Below, piece by piece: positions 1,320 through 41,458 of a stretch of DNA of 41,458 bases. This DNA comes from a virus. The position numbers and the translations under genes are program-made. Below the pieces are notes generated by a model, which was given only the letters and a program-made list of their open reading frames with translations, ran no database searches and had not been told where the DNA came from. The stretch's first letter is position 1. Each line of letters starts with the position of its first letter. The stretch is from positions 1-41,458 of IMG/VR virus record IMGVR_UViG_3300045257_000156; one strand, written 5' to 3'.

Positions 1320-1445
1320 ATGACCGAACAGAAGCAGGCGGCGTTTGATGGCTGGGCCATCGTCGACGTGATGGGGCACCAGCGCTACGTCGGGTACGTG
1401 ACGACGGAGGCGTACCGACAGATTTCACGAACAGGAGCTGACTGA
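1320..1445 (+). CDS. Truncated member of a common GWAxVxxMGH family (41 aa)
   Basis: The N-terminal half reads [19 protein letters not shown], the signature opening of a widespread small hypothetical family in bacteria and phages whose members, as I recall them, are usually roughly twice this length and end in a TPTTEE-like segment. Here the protein stops after 41 residues, exactly where the DUF6745-type pair begins (ATG at 1445 overlaps its TGA). This suggests the accessory pair was inserted into or beside it and removed the 3' half. Function of the family is unknown. Confidence 0.6.
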
Positions 1446-1798
1446 TGAACATTGTGACCCGATCTGCCCACGCGCGCGACCTTCGAGAAGGCGGGCGCAT
1501 CATCCTCGCGCACGGCGAGGTCACCGGCCACGCGCACGAGCTCGTCGACGTCGACGAGACGATGCTCGCGATCCCCGCGGCTGATTTCTTCGAAGAGCCA
1601 GACGGTCGTCGCATCCTGCTCGTCACCAGGCCCTGCGTGCTGCGGCATCAGGAGCACGCGGCCATCGCGCTCGACCAGGCGAACCCGGTCCAGGTGCGCC
1701 AGGGCGACGTGCTGCTGCAGCCGATTGGCGCCGGCGCCTGGGAGGTCATCAGGCAACGGGAGTACAGCCCCGAAGCTATCCGGAGCGTCGCGGACTGA
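1445..1798 (+). CDS. GEVTGHAH-type conserved protein, partner of DUF6745-like gene (117 aa)
   Basis: Motifs [15 protein letters not shown] (about residues 19-33), [11 protein letters not shown] (about 66-76), VRQGDVLL and a C-terminal [17 protein letters not shown] place it in a conserved bacterial family of unknown function. From memory of annotated genomes, this family sits directly upstream of DUF6745-domain genes, as it does here (3-base gap). Paired histidines in GHAHE and HQEHAA could bind metal, but that is inference. The ATG overlaps the upstream stop. Confidence 0.75.
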
Positions 1799-1801
1799 CA
1801 C

Positions 1802-2845
1802 ATGGCGACCGTGGTCATCGGCGACGCCGCGCAACGCATCATCGACCGCCTCGCTGCGGCGAGCGCTGCGGCTCCAACCCTCGATCGCGGGCGCGCTGAA
1901 CGCGCGCTCGCCGATCATTTCCGCGCGCTCGGCCTCGAACCGCTGCCGGTCGTCTGGGTGACCGACGCCGAAGCGGCATGGATGCACGTATTCCGCGCCG
2001 CCTGGAGCGCCGCCGAGAGCGCCGCCTGGAGCGCCGCCTGGAGCGCCGCCTGGAGCGCCGCCAGGAGCGCCGCCAGGAGCGCCGCCTGGAGCGCCGCCTG
2101 GAGCGCCGCCTGGAGCGCCGCCTGGAGCGCCGCCGAGAGCGCCGCCGAGAGCGCCGCCAGGAGCGCCGCCAGGAGCGCCGCCGAGAGCGCCGCCTGGAGC
2201 GCCGCCTGGAGCGCCGCCTGGAGCGCCGCCTGGAGCGCCGCCGAGAGCGCCGCCGAGAGCGCCGCCTGGAGCGCCGCCTGGAGCGCCGCTGTCGAGAAAT
2301 ACATCGGCATCTGGCTGCCGTTCGTCGACGCGTACGAAGCAGGCTTGTGGCTGTTCTGGGTGACCAGCGCGGAGGTCGTCGCGGTGCCGCGTCCCGTGCT
2401 GCGCCTCGAGGGCGAACTCCTTCACAGCGCTGAGGGGCCGGCGGTGCAGTGGCCGGGCGGTGCGGCGTACTACTTCTGGCGCGGTGTGCAGGTACCGGCC
2501 GAGATCATCCTGCACCCGGAGCGCATCACGGTGAAGAAGATCCTCGGCCAACCCAACGTTGAACTGCGGCGCGTGATGCTCGAGCGGTACGGCCACGGCC
2601 GTTTCATGGTCGACGCCGGCGCCGCGGTCCTGAATCGTGACGCCGTCGGCGTGCTGTACCAGATGCCCATCGAGGGCGACGAACCGTTGACGATGGTCGA
2701 GGTCGTGAACAGCACGCCGGAACCGGACGGCCGTCGGAAGACCTACTTGCTGCGGGTACCACCAACGATCCGGACGGCGCGGGCCGCCATTGCGTGGTCG
2801 TTCGATGTTCCGGTGAGGGCGTATCAGCCTGCGGTGGAGACGTAG
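1802..2845 (+). CDS. DUF6745-like protein with an inserted Ala-Ala-X-Ser repeat (347 aa)
   Basis: Residues 1-65 form an N-terminal domain, 66-161 are 24 perfect tetrapeptide repeats AA(W/E/R)S, and about 162-347 form the conserved C-terminal domain with [25 protein letters not shown] and [11 protein letters not shown], which I recognise as DUF6745-like. That domain's function is not established. The repeat should form a long alanine helix with Trp, Glu or Arg at every fourth position. All repeat units use one 12-base template with changes only in the third codon, so the array probably grows and shrinks by slippage. It lies in an accessory block with the GEVTGHAH gene and a zinc-ribbon gene. 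Confidence 0.75.
1997..2284 (+). repeat. 24-copy tandem 12-bp repeat inside the DUF6745-like gene
   Basis: The unit is GCCGCC-NNN-AGC, where NNN is tgg (Trp), gag (Glu) or agg (Arg). By reading, the order of X over 24 units is W E W W W R R W W W W E E R R E W W W W E E W W. Alanine and serine codons are invariant. The unit is a multiple of three, so all six frames stay open. This explains long shadow frames on both strands, including a collagen-like Gly-Ala-Pro frame on the minus strand. Confidence 0.95.
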
Positions 2846-3227: not shown

Positions 3228-3271
3228 CCTGGCTCGCCTACCTGCTCGGCGGGATCGCAGGGGCGGCATGA
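3224..3271 (+). pseudogene. 15-codon remnant of the small membrane-protein gene at 4257
   Basis: ATG to TGA encodes [15 protein letters not shown], nearly the same as the start of the protein at 4257 (MTWLFYLLGGICVAGV). The first 33 bases of the two sites differ at only about five positions. Each copy has an ATGA junction, one just before the methyltransferase gene and one at its end. The methyltransferase gene therefore lies between two copies of one gene start, as expected after insertion or duplication. Confidence 0.7.
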
Positions 3272-4260
3272 CGGTGGGGAGTTTATTTGCGGGGATCGGC
3301 GGGTTCGATCTGGGCTTCGAACGGGCCGGGTTTGAGATTCGCTGGCAGGTAGAAATCGATCCGTTCTGTCGGGCGGTGCTGGCGAAACATTGGCCGGAGG
3401 TGAGGCGGTACGAGGATGTCCGACAAGTTGTGGTCGACGCCGACGCGGGGCGACTCGTGGGCACCGTCCACGCCAGCGAGCGAGCAACGCGAATGGAGCA
3501 AGAACAACCTGCGGGGTGTGGCGGCAGCGGACATCGAGATCGACTCGAGCCAGTTGACGTTGTTTGCGGAGGCTTTCCCTGTCAACCGCACTCGCTCGCT
3601 GGCCGACGACTGGGTGCCGCCGACGAACGCGACCTCTGGCCCGAGTGTGCTCGATTGCTTCGCGAGCTTAGGCCCCGATGGGCGGTTTTTGAAAACGTAC
3701 CCGGACTGCTCTCCGCAGATGCTGGACGGTTCTTCGGAGGCGTTCTCGGAGACCTGGCCGCGTGCGGGTATGACGCGGAGTGGGATTGCTTACCAGCGAG
3801 TGCCTTCGGCGCCCCTCACCAGAGAGATCGCGTCTGGCTGGTTGCCTACCCCAACGGCGAGCGATGGTACGACGGGGCAAGTTTTGAACGACTCGACGGA
3901 GATCCGATGGTTGCCCTCGGGAAACCCCCGGAAGATCAGCAATCAAGGCGTGGATGGATCGGTGGGCTTAGCGCGGCATGTGCTGTTGACGCAGTGGCCA
4001 ACGCCGAGTGCGCAACAGCAGAGCGGCGGGACGACGGGACTGAACGGCGGCAGCGGGGCACGGGCGAAACTCCGCGCCTTAGTTGGACGCGAGGAATCCT
4101 TGCTGATGGCTGGTGGGCAATTGAACCCGACGTGGGTCGAGTGGCTCATGGGGTATCCGCTCGGGTGGACCGTCTGCGAGGCTTGGGCAACAGCATCGTC
4201 CCGCAGATCGCGGAATGGATCGCCCAGCGCATCCTCCAGGCGGAAGGGCTAGCCGCATGA
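3268..4260 (+). CDS. DNA cytosine-5 methyltransferase (330 aa)
   Basis: Transfers a methyl group from S-adenosylmethionine to cytosine C5 in DNA. Visible motifs in order: I, LFAGIGGFDLGF (6-17); IV, GGFPCQPHS with catalytic Cys105; VI, FENV (141-144); VIII, QRDRVW (185-190); and X, GNSIVPQ (307-313). The target-recognition region between VIII and X is short and unusual. The stretch between motif I and motif IV also seems longer than typical. Both unusual regions lie over a second long frame (3416-4252). The likely role is protecting phage DNA from host restriction. ATG overlaps the upstream remnant's stop, and the end overlaps the next gene. Confidence 0.9.
   Translation: MTVGSLFAGIGGFDLGFERAGFEIRWQVEIDPFCRAVLAKHWPEVRRYEDVRQVVVDADAGRLVGTVHASERATRMEQEQPAGCGGSGHRDRLEPVDVVCGGFPCQPHSLAGRRLGAADERDLWPECARLLRELRPRWAVFENVPGLLSADAGRFFGGVLGDLAACGYDAEWDCLPASAFGAPHQRDRVWLVAYPNGERWYDGASFERLDGDPMVALGKPPEDQQSRRGWIGGLSAACAVDAVANAECATAERRDDGTERRQRGTGETPRLSWTRGILADGWWAIEPDVGRVAHGVSARVDRLRGLGNSIVPQIAEWIAQRILQAEGLAA
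3416..4252 (+). CDS. Out-of-frame overlapping gene inside the methyltransferase: GMTRSG / LNPTWVEWLMG family (278 aa)
   Basis: This frame lies wholly inside the methyltransferase gene, shifted by one base. It carries signatures of a phage and prophage protein family often seen beside cytosine methyltransferases: GMTRSG (118-123), PTPTASD (144-150), WPTPSA (194-199) and LNPTWVEWLMGYPLGWT (236-252). ATG at 3416 follows GGAGGTGAGG at 3396-3405, a plausible ribosome binding site. Random shadow frames do not carry a full ordered set of family motifs. Function unknown; a link to DNA modification is inference. It might also be a relic of a methyltransferase whose end lay in this frame. Confidence 0.6.
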   Translation: MSDKLWSTPTRGDSWAPSTPASEQREWSKNNLRGVAAADIEIDSSQLTLFAEAFPVNRTRSLADDWVPPTNATSGPSVLDCFASLGPDGRFLKTYPDCSPQMLDGSSEAFSETWPRAGMTRSGIAYQRVPSAPLTREIASGWLPTPTASDGTTGQVLNDSTEIRWLPSGNPRKISNQGVDGSVGLARHVLLTQWPTPSAQQQSGGTTGLNGGSGARAKLRALVGREESLLMAGGQLNPTWVEWLMGYPLGWTVCEAWATASSRRSRNGSPSASSRRKG

Positions 4261-6102: not shown

Positions 6103-6303
6103 ATGGCCTATGACGACTGGAAAACTCGCGCACCGGAGGATGACGAGGCCCGCTGGCAACCGACGCGCGGGGTCGAGCGGACGTGTTGCGAGTGTGGGCG
6201 ATCCGTGTGGATCCACAAGACTGAGCCGTATCTGATCCATGTCGCGTGTGAGGCGTGCGTGCGGAAACAGCAACCAGAAAGACGAACCGATGCCCCAGTC
6301 TGA
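6103..6303 (+). CDS. Small zinc-ribbon protein (66 aa)
   Basis: Two Cys pairs, TCCECGRSVW and VACEACVRK, form a classic ribbon. It overlaps the start of the recombinase gene by 14 bases. Arg/Lys-rich C-terminus. Its position next to the ERF gene hints at a DNA-related role, but nothing proves it. Confidence 0.6.
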   Translation: MAYDDWKTRAPEDDEARWQPTRGVERTCCECGRSVWIHKTEPYLIHVACEACVRKQQPERRTDAPV

Positions 6304-7132
6304 CGTGATTACGGAGTATGCGGCGGCGTTGGCGAAGGCGCAGGCGGAATTTCTCGTGCCGAAGAAATCGCGCACGGCCAAAGCGGGCACGTTTTCGTAC
6401 AGGTACAGCACCTTGGACGAACTGATCGAGGCCACCCGGCCGGCCCTCGCGAAGCACGGGCTGAGCGTGCAGCAGGATGTGTTTTGCGGGCGGGTGGACG
6501 CCCAGAGCGAGATTGAGGTGTGCGTGACGACGCAGATCACGCATAGCTCTGGGCAATGGTGGCGCTCGACGCCGTTTGCGCTGCCGGCCGGAACGACGCC
6601 GCAGAACGCGGGCGCGGCCTGTACGTACGCCCGTCGGTACTCGCTCGGGGCGGCCCTGAACGTCGCGGCCGAAGAGGACACTGACGCGCAGACGGTCCAG
6701 CCCGCCAAGAGCAACGGGAAAGACCTCCACACGGCCCCTGCGGCAGTCCCGCCGAAGGACCCGGCCAGATCCGACCGGGGCGCCTCAGCTCGGGGAGAAC
6801 CTGGGGCGCCTTCCACGCCTGCGGTTGAGGCGATGTCGCCCAGCGGCACGCATGTGGTGAAAGTCGAGTCGGAGAAGCCGGATGGCAAGAATTACACGCG
6901 CTACGTCGTGACCTTTCGCGACGGCCGCGTGGCGAGCACGATTGCTACGCCGCTGGGTCGGAAGGCGGAAGCCGCGCGAGACGCGGGGACGCTCGTCACG
7001 CCCGTGATCAAGCCGGGAAAGTTTGGGAAGTTTGACCTAGACCGGCTGGATCCGCCGACGCGCAAGCCCCCGGTCATAGACCCGGAGGACCAAGGGCCAC
7101 CGCCGTGGATGGAAGAAGAGGGGCAACGCTGA
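6290..7132 (+). CDS. erf: ERF-family single-strand annealing recombinase (280 aa)
   Basis: ERF proteins anneal complementary single-stranded DNA in phage recombination and genome circularisation. Residues 1-130 carry the family features: FSYRYSTLDELIEATRPAL (about 35-53), HGLSVQQ, QWWRSTPF and CTYARRYSLGAALNV (111-125). The C-terminal half has a Pro/Ala-rich linker and a separate small basic domain (about 195-265). ATG at 6290 was chosen over earlier in-frame starts because the conserved domain begins there. The HNH gene follows with an overlapping stop and start. Confidence 0.85.
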   Translation: MPQSDVITEYAAALAKAQAEFLVPKKSRTAKAGTFSYRYSTLDELIEATRPALAKHGLSVQQDVFCGRVDAQSEIEVCVTTQITHSSGQWWRSTPFALPAGTTPQNAGAACTYARRYSLGAALNVAAEEDTDAQTVQPAKSNGKDLHTAPAAVPPKDPARSDRGASARGEPGAPSTPAVEAMSPSGTHVVKVESEKPDGKNYTRYVVTFRDGRVASTIATPLGRKAEAARDAGTLVTPVIKPGKFGKFDLDRLDPPTRKPPVIDPEDQGPPPWMEEEGQR

Positions 7133-7629
7133 TGGTGGGCCAGACGTGTCCGACGTGCGGACGATCGTTTTGGGTATATCCGTCCACACTTGCACGCGGG
7201 CATGGCAAGTACTGCTCGAAGCCCTGCCGTCCGTATCGTGCCGCGGGAAATCCGAACTGGCGCGGAGGGCGAGTCCTCGAGAAACGTGATGGACGGGTCC
7301 GACTCTATGCACCTGACCACCCTAACGCCACGGCGCTCGGCTATGTCTACGAATATCGTCTCGTGGCGAGTCGTACGCTTGGGCGTCCACTTTTTGACCA
7401 TGAAGTGGTGCATCACATCAATGGCGATCCGACCGACAACCGGCCCGAAAACCTTGAGGTCATCACGCCGACTGATCATATCAATCGTCACCGGCACGAG
7501 TTGACGACGAGCGGGGCCACGAATCGCGCTGCGGCCCTGAAGGCGCTGAACGAGAGACTGACCACTGCGCAACGGAAAGCCGCTTGGGTCAAGCGAAAGG
7601 AGGCGCGGCGTGCAATCTCTGGTGTTTGA
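7132..7629 (+). CDS. HNH endonuclease with N-terminal zinc ribbon (165 aa)
   Basis: N-terminal CPTCGRSF and YCSKPC form a zinc ribbon. The core VVHHINGDPTDNRPENLEVI is an HNH motif of the type found in phage homing endonucleases, and a lysine/arginine-rich C-terminus follows. It overlaps the exonuclease start by 20 bases. It may be a free-standing homing nuclease inserted between erf and the exonuclease gene, or a recombination partner. Confidence 0.85.
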   Translation: MVGQTCPTCGRSFWVYPSTLARGHGKYCSKPCRPYRAAGNPNWRGGRVLEKRDGRVRLYAPDHPNATALGYVYEYRLVASRTLGRPLFDHEVVHHINGDPTDNRPENLEVITPTDHINRHRHELTTSGATNRAAALKALNERLTTAQRKAAWVKRKEARRAISGV

Positions 7630-8263
7630 TACGGAAGCGGTTGCGATTGACGGCGCGGCCGATTTCCTCGAGCCGGTGATGGCCCCGTCGAACTACGTCA
7701 AGGCGGAAGCGATTGCGGCGTACATCGAAAAGGCGCAGCGGGAGCAGTTAGCGAAAGCGGCGCTCGATATGGACCTCGCGCGGATTGTCTGCCTGGGCGT
7801 GGTCCTCGGGGCCAGTGAGCCGGACGTGCGCCTCGCCAAAACCGAGGATGAGGAACGGGCGCTGCTGCAGTGGTTCTGGACCTCGTGTGTCGGGACGTCG
7901 ATGCGCCGGCCATTGCTGATTGGATTTAATTGTCTGGGGTATGACTTGCCGTTGCTGCTGCGGCGCTCGCTCTACCTTGGGGTGCATACCCCACGACTCC
8001 CGATCAATCGCTATCGGCATGAAGGCATCGAGGATCTGCTATTGACGTTGTCGTATGACGGGGCGCAGAAGATGCGCGGGCTGGCGTTCTATTGCAAACG
8101 CTTCGCGATCGACGTGCCGGATGCGACGACGGGCGCGGACATCGCTGGGTTGGTGGCTGAGGCGAAGTGGGATCAGGTGGCGGCGCACTGTCGGGCCGAC
8201 ATTCTGCGAACGGTGCAACTCGCGGCGAGACTCGGTGTGTTGCAGGGTGAGGCGGTGTTTTGA
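7610..8263 (+). CDS. DEDD-type 3'-5' exonuclease (217 aa)
   Basis: RNase H-fold exonuclease signature: Exo I FDTE (D7, E9), Exo II GFNCLGYD (N107, D112), and Exo III H193-x3-D197 in AAHCRADILRTVQL. Resembles the predicted PolB-like 3'-5' exonuclease group found in phages. GTG start at 7610 follows AAAGGAGG, one of the best ribosome binding sites in the window. Probably trims DNA ends for the ERF pathway or proofreads, which is inference. Confidence 0.8.
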   Translation: MQSLVFDTEAVAIDGAADFLEPVMAPSNYVKAEAIAAYIEKAQREQLAKAALDMDLARIVCLGVVLGASEPDVRLAKTEDEERALLQWFWTSCVGTSMRRPLLIGFNCLGYDLPLLLRRSLYLGVHTPRLPINRYRHEGIEDLLLTLSYDGAQKMRGLAFYCKRFAIDVPDATTGADIAGLVAEAKWDQVAAHCRADILRTVQLAARLGVLQGEAVF

Positions 8264-12177: not shown

Positions 12178-12259
12178 GGAGAGTTGGCTGAATGGTAAAG
12201 CAGCGGCCCGCTAAGCCGTCGCGTCTTGACGCGTGCCGGTTCGATTCCGGCACTCTCTC
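12178..12259 (+). tRNA. tRNA-Ser (anticodon GCT)
   Basis: Folds by eye: acceptor GGAGAGT / ACTCTCT (first pair G-U), D arm GCT...AGC with GG in the loop, anticodon stem GCGGC / GCCGT around loop CCGCTAA, a long variable arm CGCGTC-TT-GACGCG, and T arm GCCGG-TTCGATT-CCGGC. The long variable arm and GCT anticodon mark it as serine, reading AGC and AGT. No CCA is encoded. The base before the anticodon is C, where nearly all tRNAs have U33. Confidence 0.85.
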
Positions 12260-12323
12260 CGCTTGTACTGCCCATGAAGCCCCTCGCCACGGTTACCCCG
12301 TTCTCCCACTGGAGATTCCCGCG

Positions 12324-41127: not shown

Positions 41128-41458
41128 GTACACAGCGCAAGACACGCAAGCCCCATCTCTATAAGGGCCTCCCGCTGATCGATGCCCCACTCGGATCCGA
41201 CATCGTGCTGGAGGTGACGAAGGCGGATGTCAGCGGCGCCAGACGGAACGACCCCGGTCACTGCGCAGCCGCCAACGCCGCGAAACGGCTCTTCCATACC
41301 GACGTGGAAGTCCATCTGTCGCGGACCTACGTGAAGACGAAGGACAAGAAGTCGTGGATTCGCTACCAGACGCCGCAAGCAATCGGGCGTGAAATCGTGG
41401 CGTTTGACCGAGCGTCCCAGTTTGAACCGGGTACGTATCGGCTCACGGCCACAACGCC
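41124..41458 (+). CDS. 5' part of the gene spanning the circular join (continues at 1-251)
   Basis: ATGA overlap with the upstream gene fixes the start. Begins STQRKTRKPHLYKGLPLI, then LEVTKADVSGARRNDPGHCA. Bases 41332-41458 are the same as 1-127, so the real gene is 41124-41331 plus 1-251 (152 aa). Function unknown. Confidence 0.8.
   Translation, partial: MSTQRKTRKPHLYKGLPLIDAPLGSDIVLEVTKADVSGARRNDPGHCAAANAAKRLFHTDVEVHLSRTYVKTKDKKSWIRYQTPQAIGREIVAFDRASQFEPGTYRLTATT
41332..41458. repeat. Terminal direct repeat, right copy
   Basis: Identical to bases 1-127; see that entry. Confidence 0.95.

Follow-up and report, generated by a model that had tools for sequence, protein, structure and literature searches.

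The window analyzed here is the whole 41,458-nucleotide stretch of an IMG/VR virus record (IMGVR_UViG_3300045257_000156). The same 127 bases stand at both ends, forming an exact direct terminal repeat (positions 1-127 and 41332-41458), and the record is therefore probably a complete phage genome, either circular or terminally redundant. The features of the window on which the argument draws are the following:

1445..1798, plus strand: GEVTGHAH partner gene, 117 aa, of a small all-beta protein family
1697..1726, plus strand: displaced RQGDVL segment of the partner, located by alignment with homologues
1802..2845, plus strand: DUF6745 gene, 347 aa, beginning 3 bases past the partner stop codon
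1802..1996, plus strand: N-terminal region of the DUF6745 protein, with D-R-x-x-A-E and V-x-W-V motifs common to homologues (alignment A6)
1997..2284, plus strand: AAxS array of 24 tandem 12-bp units, GCC-GCC-(TGG/GAG/AGG)-AGC, with x in the order WEWWWRRWWWWEERREWWWWEEWW
2252..2842, plus strand: match to Pfam PF20530 (DUF6745), profile positions 12-206
3268-4260: C-5 cytosine DNA methylase gene, downstream of the pair
6239-7132: ERF-family annealing protein
7610-8263: PolB-exo-like 3'-5' exonuclease
12178-12260: phage-borne tRNA-Ser (gct) gene

Tandem Repeats Finder places the 12-bp array at 1995-2289 (24.6 copies, score 478), and it is the sole strong array in the window; the repeat did not arise by chance. 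Read in frame, it consists of exactly 24 units with invariant Ala-Ala and Ser codons, as an earlier note on this DNA had claimed. The variable residue is Trp in 14 units, Glu in six and Arg in four, encoded as TGG, GAG and AGG, respectively; all differences are confined to the first two bases of this third codon, and the other ten bases are invariant across all units. The same note had assigned the C-terminal domain to DUF6745, and the profile search agrees: residues 151-347 match PF20530 with an E-value of 1.2e-47 and 162.3 bits, against a curated cut-off of 27. In the AlphaFold2 model this domain is confident (pLDDT mostly above 90), and the array is drawn as a pair of long alpha helices, for which confidence is low to moderate (pLDDT of about 46-74). 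Foldseek searches of the PDB with the models of this protein and its partner returned no match at E ≤ 0.001, and VIA-align Z-scores reached at most 6.9, on the helical array, in one model and 3.2 in that of the partner, so that neither clearly resembles a solved structure. A literature search found no paper naming DUF6745 or DUF7666 and no published function for either protein of the pair.

The partner family has a clear signature, in which residues G11, D12, H48, H80, H83, E100 and D111 are invariant among 37 homologues. The conserved residues (E-x-T-G-H-x-H, H-x-E-H and a C-terminal Asp) are present in the window's partner protein, which has a final VAD, and the model of a canonical homologue (from locus L244) is all beta, with a mean pLDDT of 90.6. 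The RQGDVL segment is N-terminal in most partners and lies just before the last strand in the window protein and in those of loci L178 and L207. From the alignment, this displaced strand looks like a natural permutation of the small beta protein.

The pairing of the two genes is conserved well beyond the window, as the earlier note had stated for bacterial chromosomes. The locus collection comprised 79 bacterial and 32 viral loci, plus others found by DNA pattern; a locus was testable if its DUF6745 gene had at least 1.2 kb on both sides, and the search used profiles made from the first homologues. The partner was adjacent in 116 of the 120 testable loci, with both gene orders occurring: 37 of 39 viral loci, seven of eight from phage and plasmid records, and 72 of 73 from bacterial genomes, a set that the search patterns skewed toward Streptomyces relatives. 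When an even sample of 396 actinobacterial genomes was searched instead, DUF6745 scored above the cut-off in ten, and the partner was also present at most of those loci. The pair neighbourhood occurs in Streptomyces, Mycolicibacterium, Nocardia, Nonomuraea and a Mycobacterium abscessus prophage, and related genes are carried by a cyanobacterial phage and plasmid; in Microcystis phage LMM01, a GEVTGHKH gene is followed by one whose product aligns to DUF6745 proteins. Beyond the partner gene, no neighbour was widely recurrent across the loci.

Chromosomal PF20530 and GEVTGHAH pairs resemble that of the window in the C-terminal domain, the N-terminal motif and the adjacent partner, but most chromosomal actinobacterial members differ from it in their middle section, which is non-repetitive. 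The description of the array as inserted is loosely right. Four-residue arrays occupy this middle site in DUF6745 proteins of viruses, prophages, plasmids and some bacteria, and in many chromosomal relatives a non-repetitive section of about 100 residues joins the N-terminal motif to the C-terminal domain at the same place.

Across the family, 84 distinct arrays with 2,032 units were assembled, and their scaffold words are AAxS, QLxD/G, SLxD/A, NLxA/D, QVxA/D and AVxG/S, and many arrays have another switching codon besides x, which encodes D, G or A. At x itself most units carry GGG, TGG, AGG, CGG or GAG, and a smaller class has GAC, TAC, CAC, CGC, GGC or AAC. The restriction of the third residue to W, E and R therefore describes the window array but not the family, in which G is the commonest letter and one subclass uses D, Y, H and N; the overall letter counts are biased to W, R, G and E, since 26 arrays were found via C-terminal protein similarity, without selection on array DNA, and most of the other 58 by patterns favouring NGG or NRG. 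Similarly, a three-unit pattern beginning CTSNGGGMC had no match in the 396 actinobacterial genomes, but other or imperfect arrays are present in three of its DUF6745 genomes (L283, L285 and L286), so the lack of a single pattern does not mean that arrays are lacking. Arginine at the variable position is encoded by AGG in 46 arrays and by CGG in 22, and in none of these 68 do the two occur together, which argues that the letters spread by copying of units. Each array thus seems to have grown by the copying of a small number of founder units, with different arrays converging on the same residues.

The arrays differ between otherwise near-identical copies of the gene. Four M. abscessus prophage copies (L003, L104, L105 and L106), whose C-terminal DNA is 100% identical over 624-630 nt, have 46, 62, 19 and at least 21 units, respectively; L003 and L105 are 99.4-99.5% identical across several kilobases outside the array. 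Likewise, L095, L096, L098 and L100 have 600 identical nt in common and different arrays, and two Nocardia farcinica loci with 99.7% identity over 654 bases carry 15 units (L108) and a far longer array (L006). Two tandem DUF6745 genes in viral contig L268 (4059-6599) share 504 identical C-terminal nt and have different AAxS-type arrays. Many viral contigs break inside the array, so that lengths taken from short reads need caution and some of the differences may be assembly errors. The note's proposal of a hypervariable array accordingly stands for the relatives, in which copies with identical flanks differ, and would be an extrapolation at the window locus, for which a single-protein scan of viral contigs returned no close or near-identical relative. 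In L006 (400-1932; N. farcinica NCTC11134 plasmid 3), the DUF6745 gene is apparently split, with two frame changes in or before its QVxA array relative to L108, reflecting either sequencing error or real inactivation.

The order of the units within an array carries no detectable positional signal. Lag autocorrelation is about zero, Fourier analysis over 15 angles, one of them the 40-degree turn that an alpha helix would give each unit, yielded only scattered values of |z| near 2, and a signal at lag 9 (z of 2.1-2.8) was lost after correction for 12-20 lags. The earlier idea of a programmable stripe along the helix is therefore not supported, as the order is indistinguishable from a shuffled one. 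Repeated five-unit words do exceed those in shuffles (pooled z of 13.7), a modest block-copy signal in line with few multi-unit copying events per array. Simple one-unit slippage was considered and rejected: it predicts a correlation between neighbours, which is absent, and the data are matched more closely when a few block events are simulated in each array.

Arrays of the same kind occur outside the DUF6745 family. Proteins with a DUF7666 N-terminus, a GSH...DHPxC family, a KGCAIGC family and others also have AAxS arrays with the letters W, E and R, and unrelated phage families combining AAxS arrays with W/E/R codons are represented by L227, L229, L236, L243, L248, L261, L265 and L276. The DUF7666 and other AAxS families (L227, L229, L236, L243 and L276) share with the window the AAxS units and the variable codons TGG, GAG and AGG or CGG, and their scaffold codons are nearly fixed within each array; unlike the window protein, they have unrelated N-terminal domains and no DUF6745 domain. 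In one further array (L258, 1-1074), Ala, encoded by GCG, is a fourth letter beside W, R and E.

In the GSH...DHPxC family, the phrog_3416 members L265 and L269 are homologues of gp54 from mycobacteriophage Tweety; a search with the N-terminal part of L269 gave matches in 148 mycobacteriophage records, of which 97 have 80-90% identity. Tweety gp54 and its homologues Che8 gp57 and PMC gp51 have 48, 26 and 15 units, respectively, and the Tweety gene is apparently non-essential (PMC2884959). Pham et al. (2007) noted that third codon positions in the Tweety array are invariant and described the pattern as "consistent with selection for variation" (PMC2884959). According to two reviews, Tweety mutants that escape the defences of the Phrann or MichelleMyBell prophages have more or fewer gene 54 repeats, and the change in repeat number is said to "tune" counter-defence (PMC9262239, PMC8549241). 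Comparison of Tweety with KristaRAM shows the first 420 bases of the gene to be identical and the arrays to differ, giving proteins of 374 and 246 residues. In Mycobacterium phage Ardmore, the homologue gp46 (L299, 1501-2151) runs out of frame soon after its first AAxS unit, leaving a shortened protein with an altered C-terminus.

Like the window gene, Tweety gp54 has a 12-bp unit and a mid-protein Ala-Ala-x-S array between two constant regions. Its family also shows what is seen in the DUF6745 arrays: near-identical flanks with differing unit number, invariant third codon positions and mainly amino-acid-changing variation. However, the N- and C-terminal parts of gp54 have no sequence relationship to DUF6745. 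Apart from the array, the window protein has no significant similarity to gp54 (best E-value of 0.078, over 21 residues), and its weak phrog_3416 match is confined to the array, at residues 94-164. The two also differ at the fourth unit position, which is S or Y in Tweety and always S in the window, and, judged by annotation, the Tweety neighbourhood contains no GEVTGHAH-like partner. A looser parallel is variable region 2 of bbp36 from Bordetella phage BMP-1, likened here by its published description: this too is a repeat array in a phage gene, non-essential and differing in copy number between isolates, but its unit is 24 bp long, with spacers and a different sequence (PMC2884959).

Because Tweety gp54 has this same AAxS array as its tunable part, we favour, by analogy, the reading that the window gene encodes a recombination-tunable counter-defence protein that works like gp54 without being its homologue, and we give this a probability of roughly 0.45. 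On this proposal, the GEVTGHAH beta protein and the DUF6745 protein would form one conserved cassette, in whose phage-type copies a helical array of four-residue units lies in the middle of the DUF6745 protein. The length and letter content of the array would shift in frame-safe 12-bp steps, presumably by recombination between units; short-homology recombination of this kind could be driven by the phage's own ERF-type annealing protein. The pair would then act early and inside the cell, as a counter-defence or inter-phage conflict factor of which the array is the adjustable part, and gain or loss of units may alter how the N- and C-terminal parts are spaced or touch each other, retuning the protein to a new defence. 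We infer that the array folds as a helix, that recombination is the route of change and that the window gene acts in counter-defence; a recombination-tuned intracellular conflict protein is the simplest account of flanks that stay constant, length changes that keep the frame, the scarcity of synonymous changes, the convergent residues and the Tweety precedent. The note's suggestion of a role in conflict survives to the extent of this analogy, but membership of a known defence system is not supported, as none of the families modelled in PADLOC-DB 2.0.0 matched either protein. Moreover, array-free DUF6745 pairs are frequent in Streptomyces and related chromosomes, so the basic job of the cassette may be something else.

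Alternatively, the array could be a neutral rod, a GC-rich minisatellite whose expansion is tolerated in a permissive linker, with letters inherited from the founder units and no part in conflict. The random look of the unit order at the lags and helical periods tested, the existence of array-free homologues, the modest block-copy signal and the out-of-frame arrays of Ardmore and Nocardia L006 would all suit such a rod. Yet neutral drift should alter synonymous sites as well. In the 26 arrays found via the C-terminal domain, 114 alternative codons are non-synonymous and only five synonymous, against an expected synonymous share of 26% (p = 1.8e-10), which speaks against neutrality. Nor does an accident of founding explain why the letters W, R, G and E recur on different scaffolds and in unrelated families. 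We therefore regard the neutral rod as unlikely, though deserving serious consideration.

Only one or two positions in each unit vary, and nearly all of this variation changes the amino acid, which could point to a variable recognition surface. Here the letters along the helix would be a binding code for a variable partner, such as a defence protein, a competing phage or self, and both their order and their identity would matter. Nearly all NGG-type arrays retain three or four letters that differ widely in chemistry, and diversity is found between otherwise identical phages, as such a surface would have it. Conversely, the random unit order, in which not even the 40-degree helix step leaves a period, speaks against a strict positional code, and the escape changes reported for Tweety are changes in unit number (PMC9262239, PMC8549241). 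A recognition surface in this sense thus appears quite unlikely.

Variation in repeat length is typical of many surface proteins, and a virion or surface protein for host attachment might be envisaged on that ground. The window gene, however, lies near the DNA methylase, ERF annealing protein and exonuclease genes, related pairs adjoin replication or nucleotide genes, and no match to a tail-fibre or other structural family was found; the surface interaction entertained in the earlier note is thus left without evidence, and we consider this reading highly improbable. Least probable of all, to the point of being scarcely credible, is that targeted mutagenesis, for example by a diversity-generating retroelement, writes the variable codons: the variation does sit on fixed bases of the unit, but the window record has no match to a reverse transcriptase (PF00078), the codons are NGG/GAG or NRC rather than the adenine-derived NNY of such elements, and random writing of each unit would not keep AGG and CGG apart in all 68 arrays.

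To return to the proposed recombination-tuned conflict protein, arrays of this kind were already known, but their use in the DUF6745 pair and the recurrence of a W/R/G/E alphabet across families appear to be new. A tunable tetrapeptide array, obscure in its mechanism, had been described in one mycobacteriophage protein, and similar arrays with the same restricted letters are now found in a conserved cassette of actinobacteria and diverse phages as well as in other, unrelated phage families. It is possible, although on balance doubtful, that helices built from tetrad repeats, with few and convergent letters (W/R/G/E or Y/H/D/N/R/G), serve phages and other mobile elements as a general conflict module, portable and quick to be re-tuned, which is present in at least four unrelated protein families, with the GEVTGHAH/DUF6745 cassette as one carrier. 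Were this so, a single mechanism would let phages adapt to host and prophage defences through repeat number. The DUF6745 pair also brings with it a conserved partner protein that can be studied; no such partner is known for Tweety gp54. If the function is shared, a rapidly adapting conflict factor would be recognisable from its repeats alone, and many unexplained proteins would gain a testable role.
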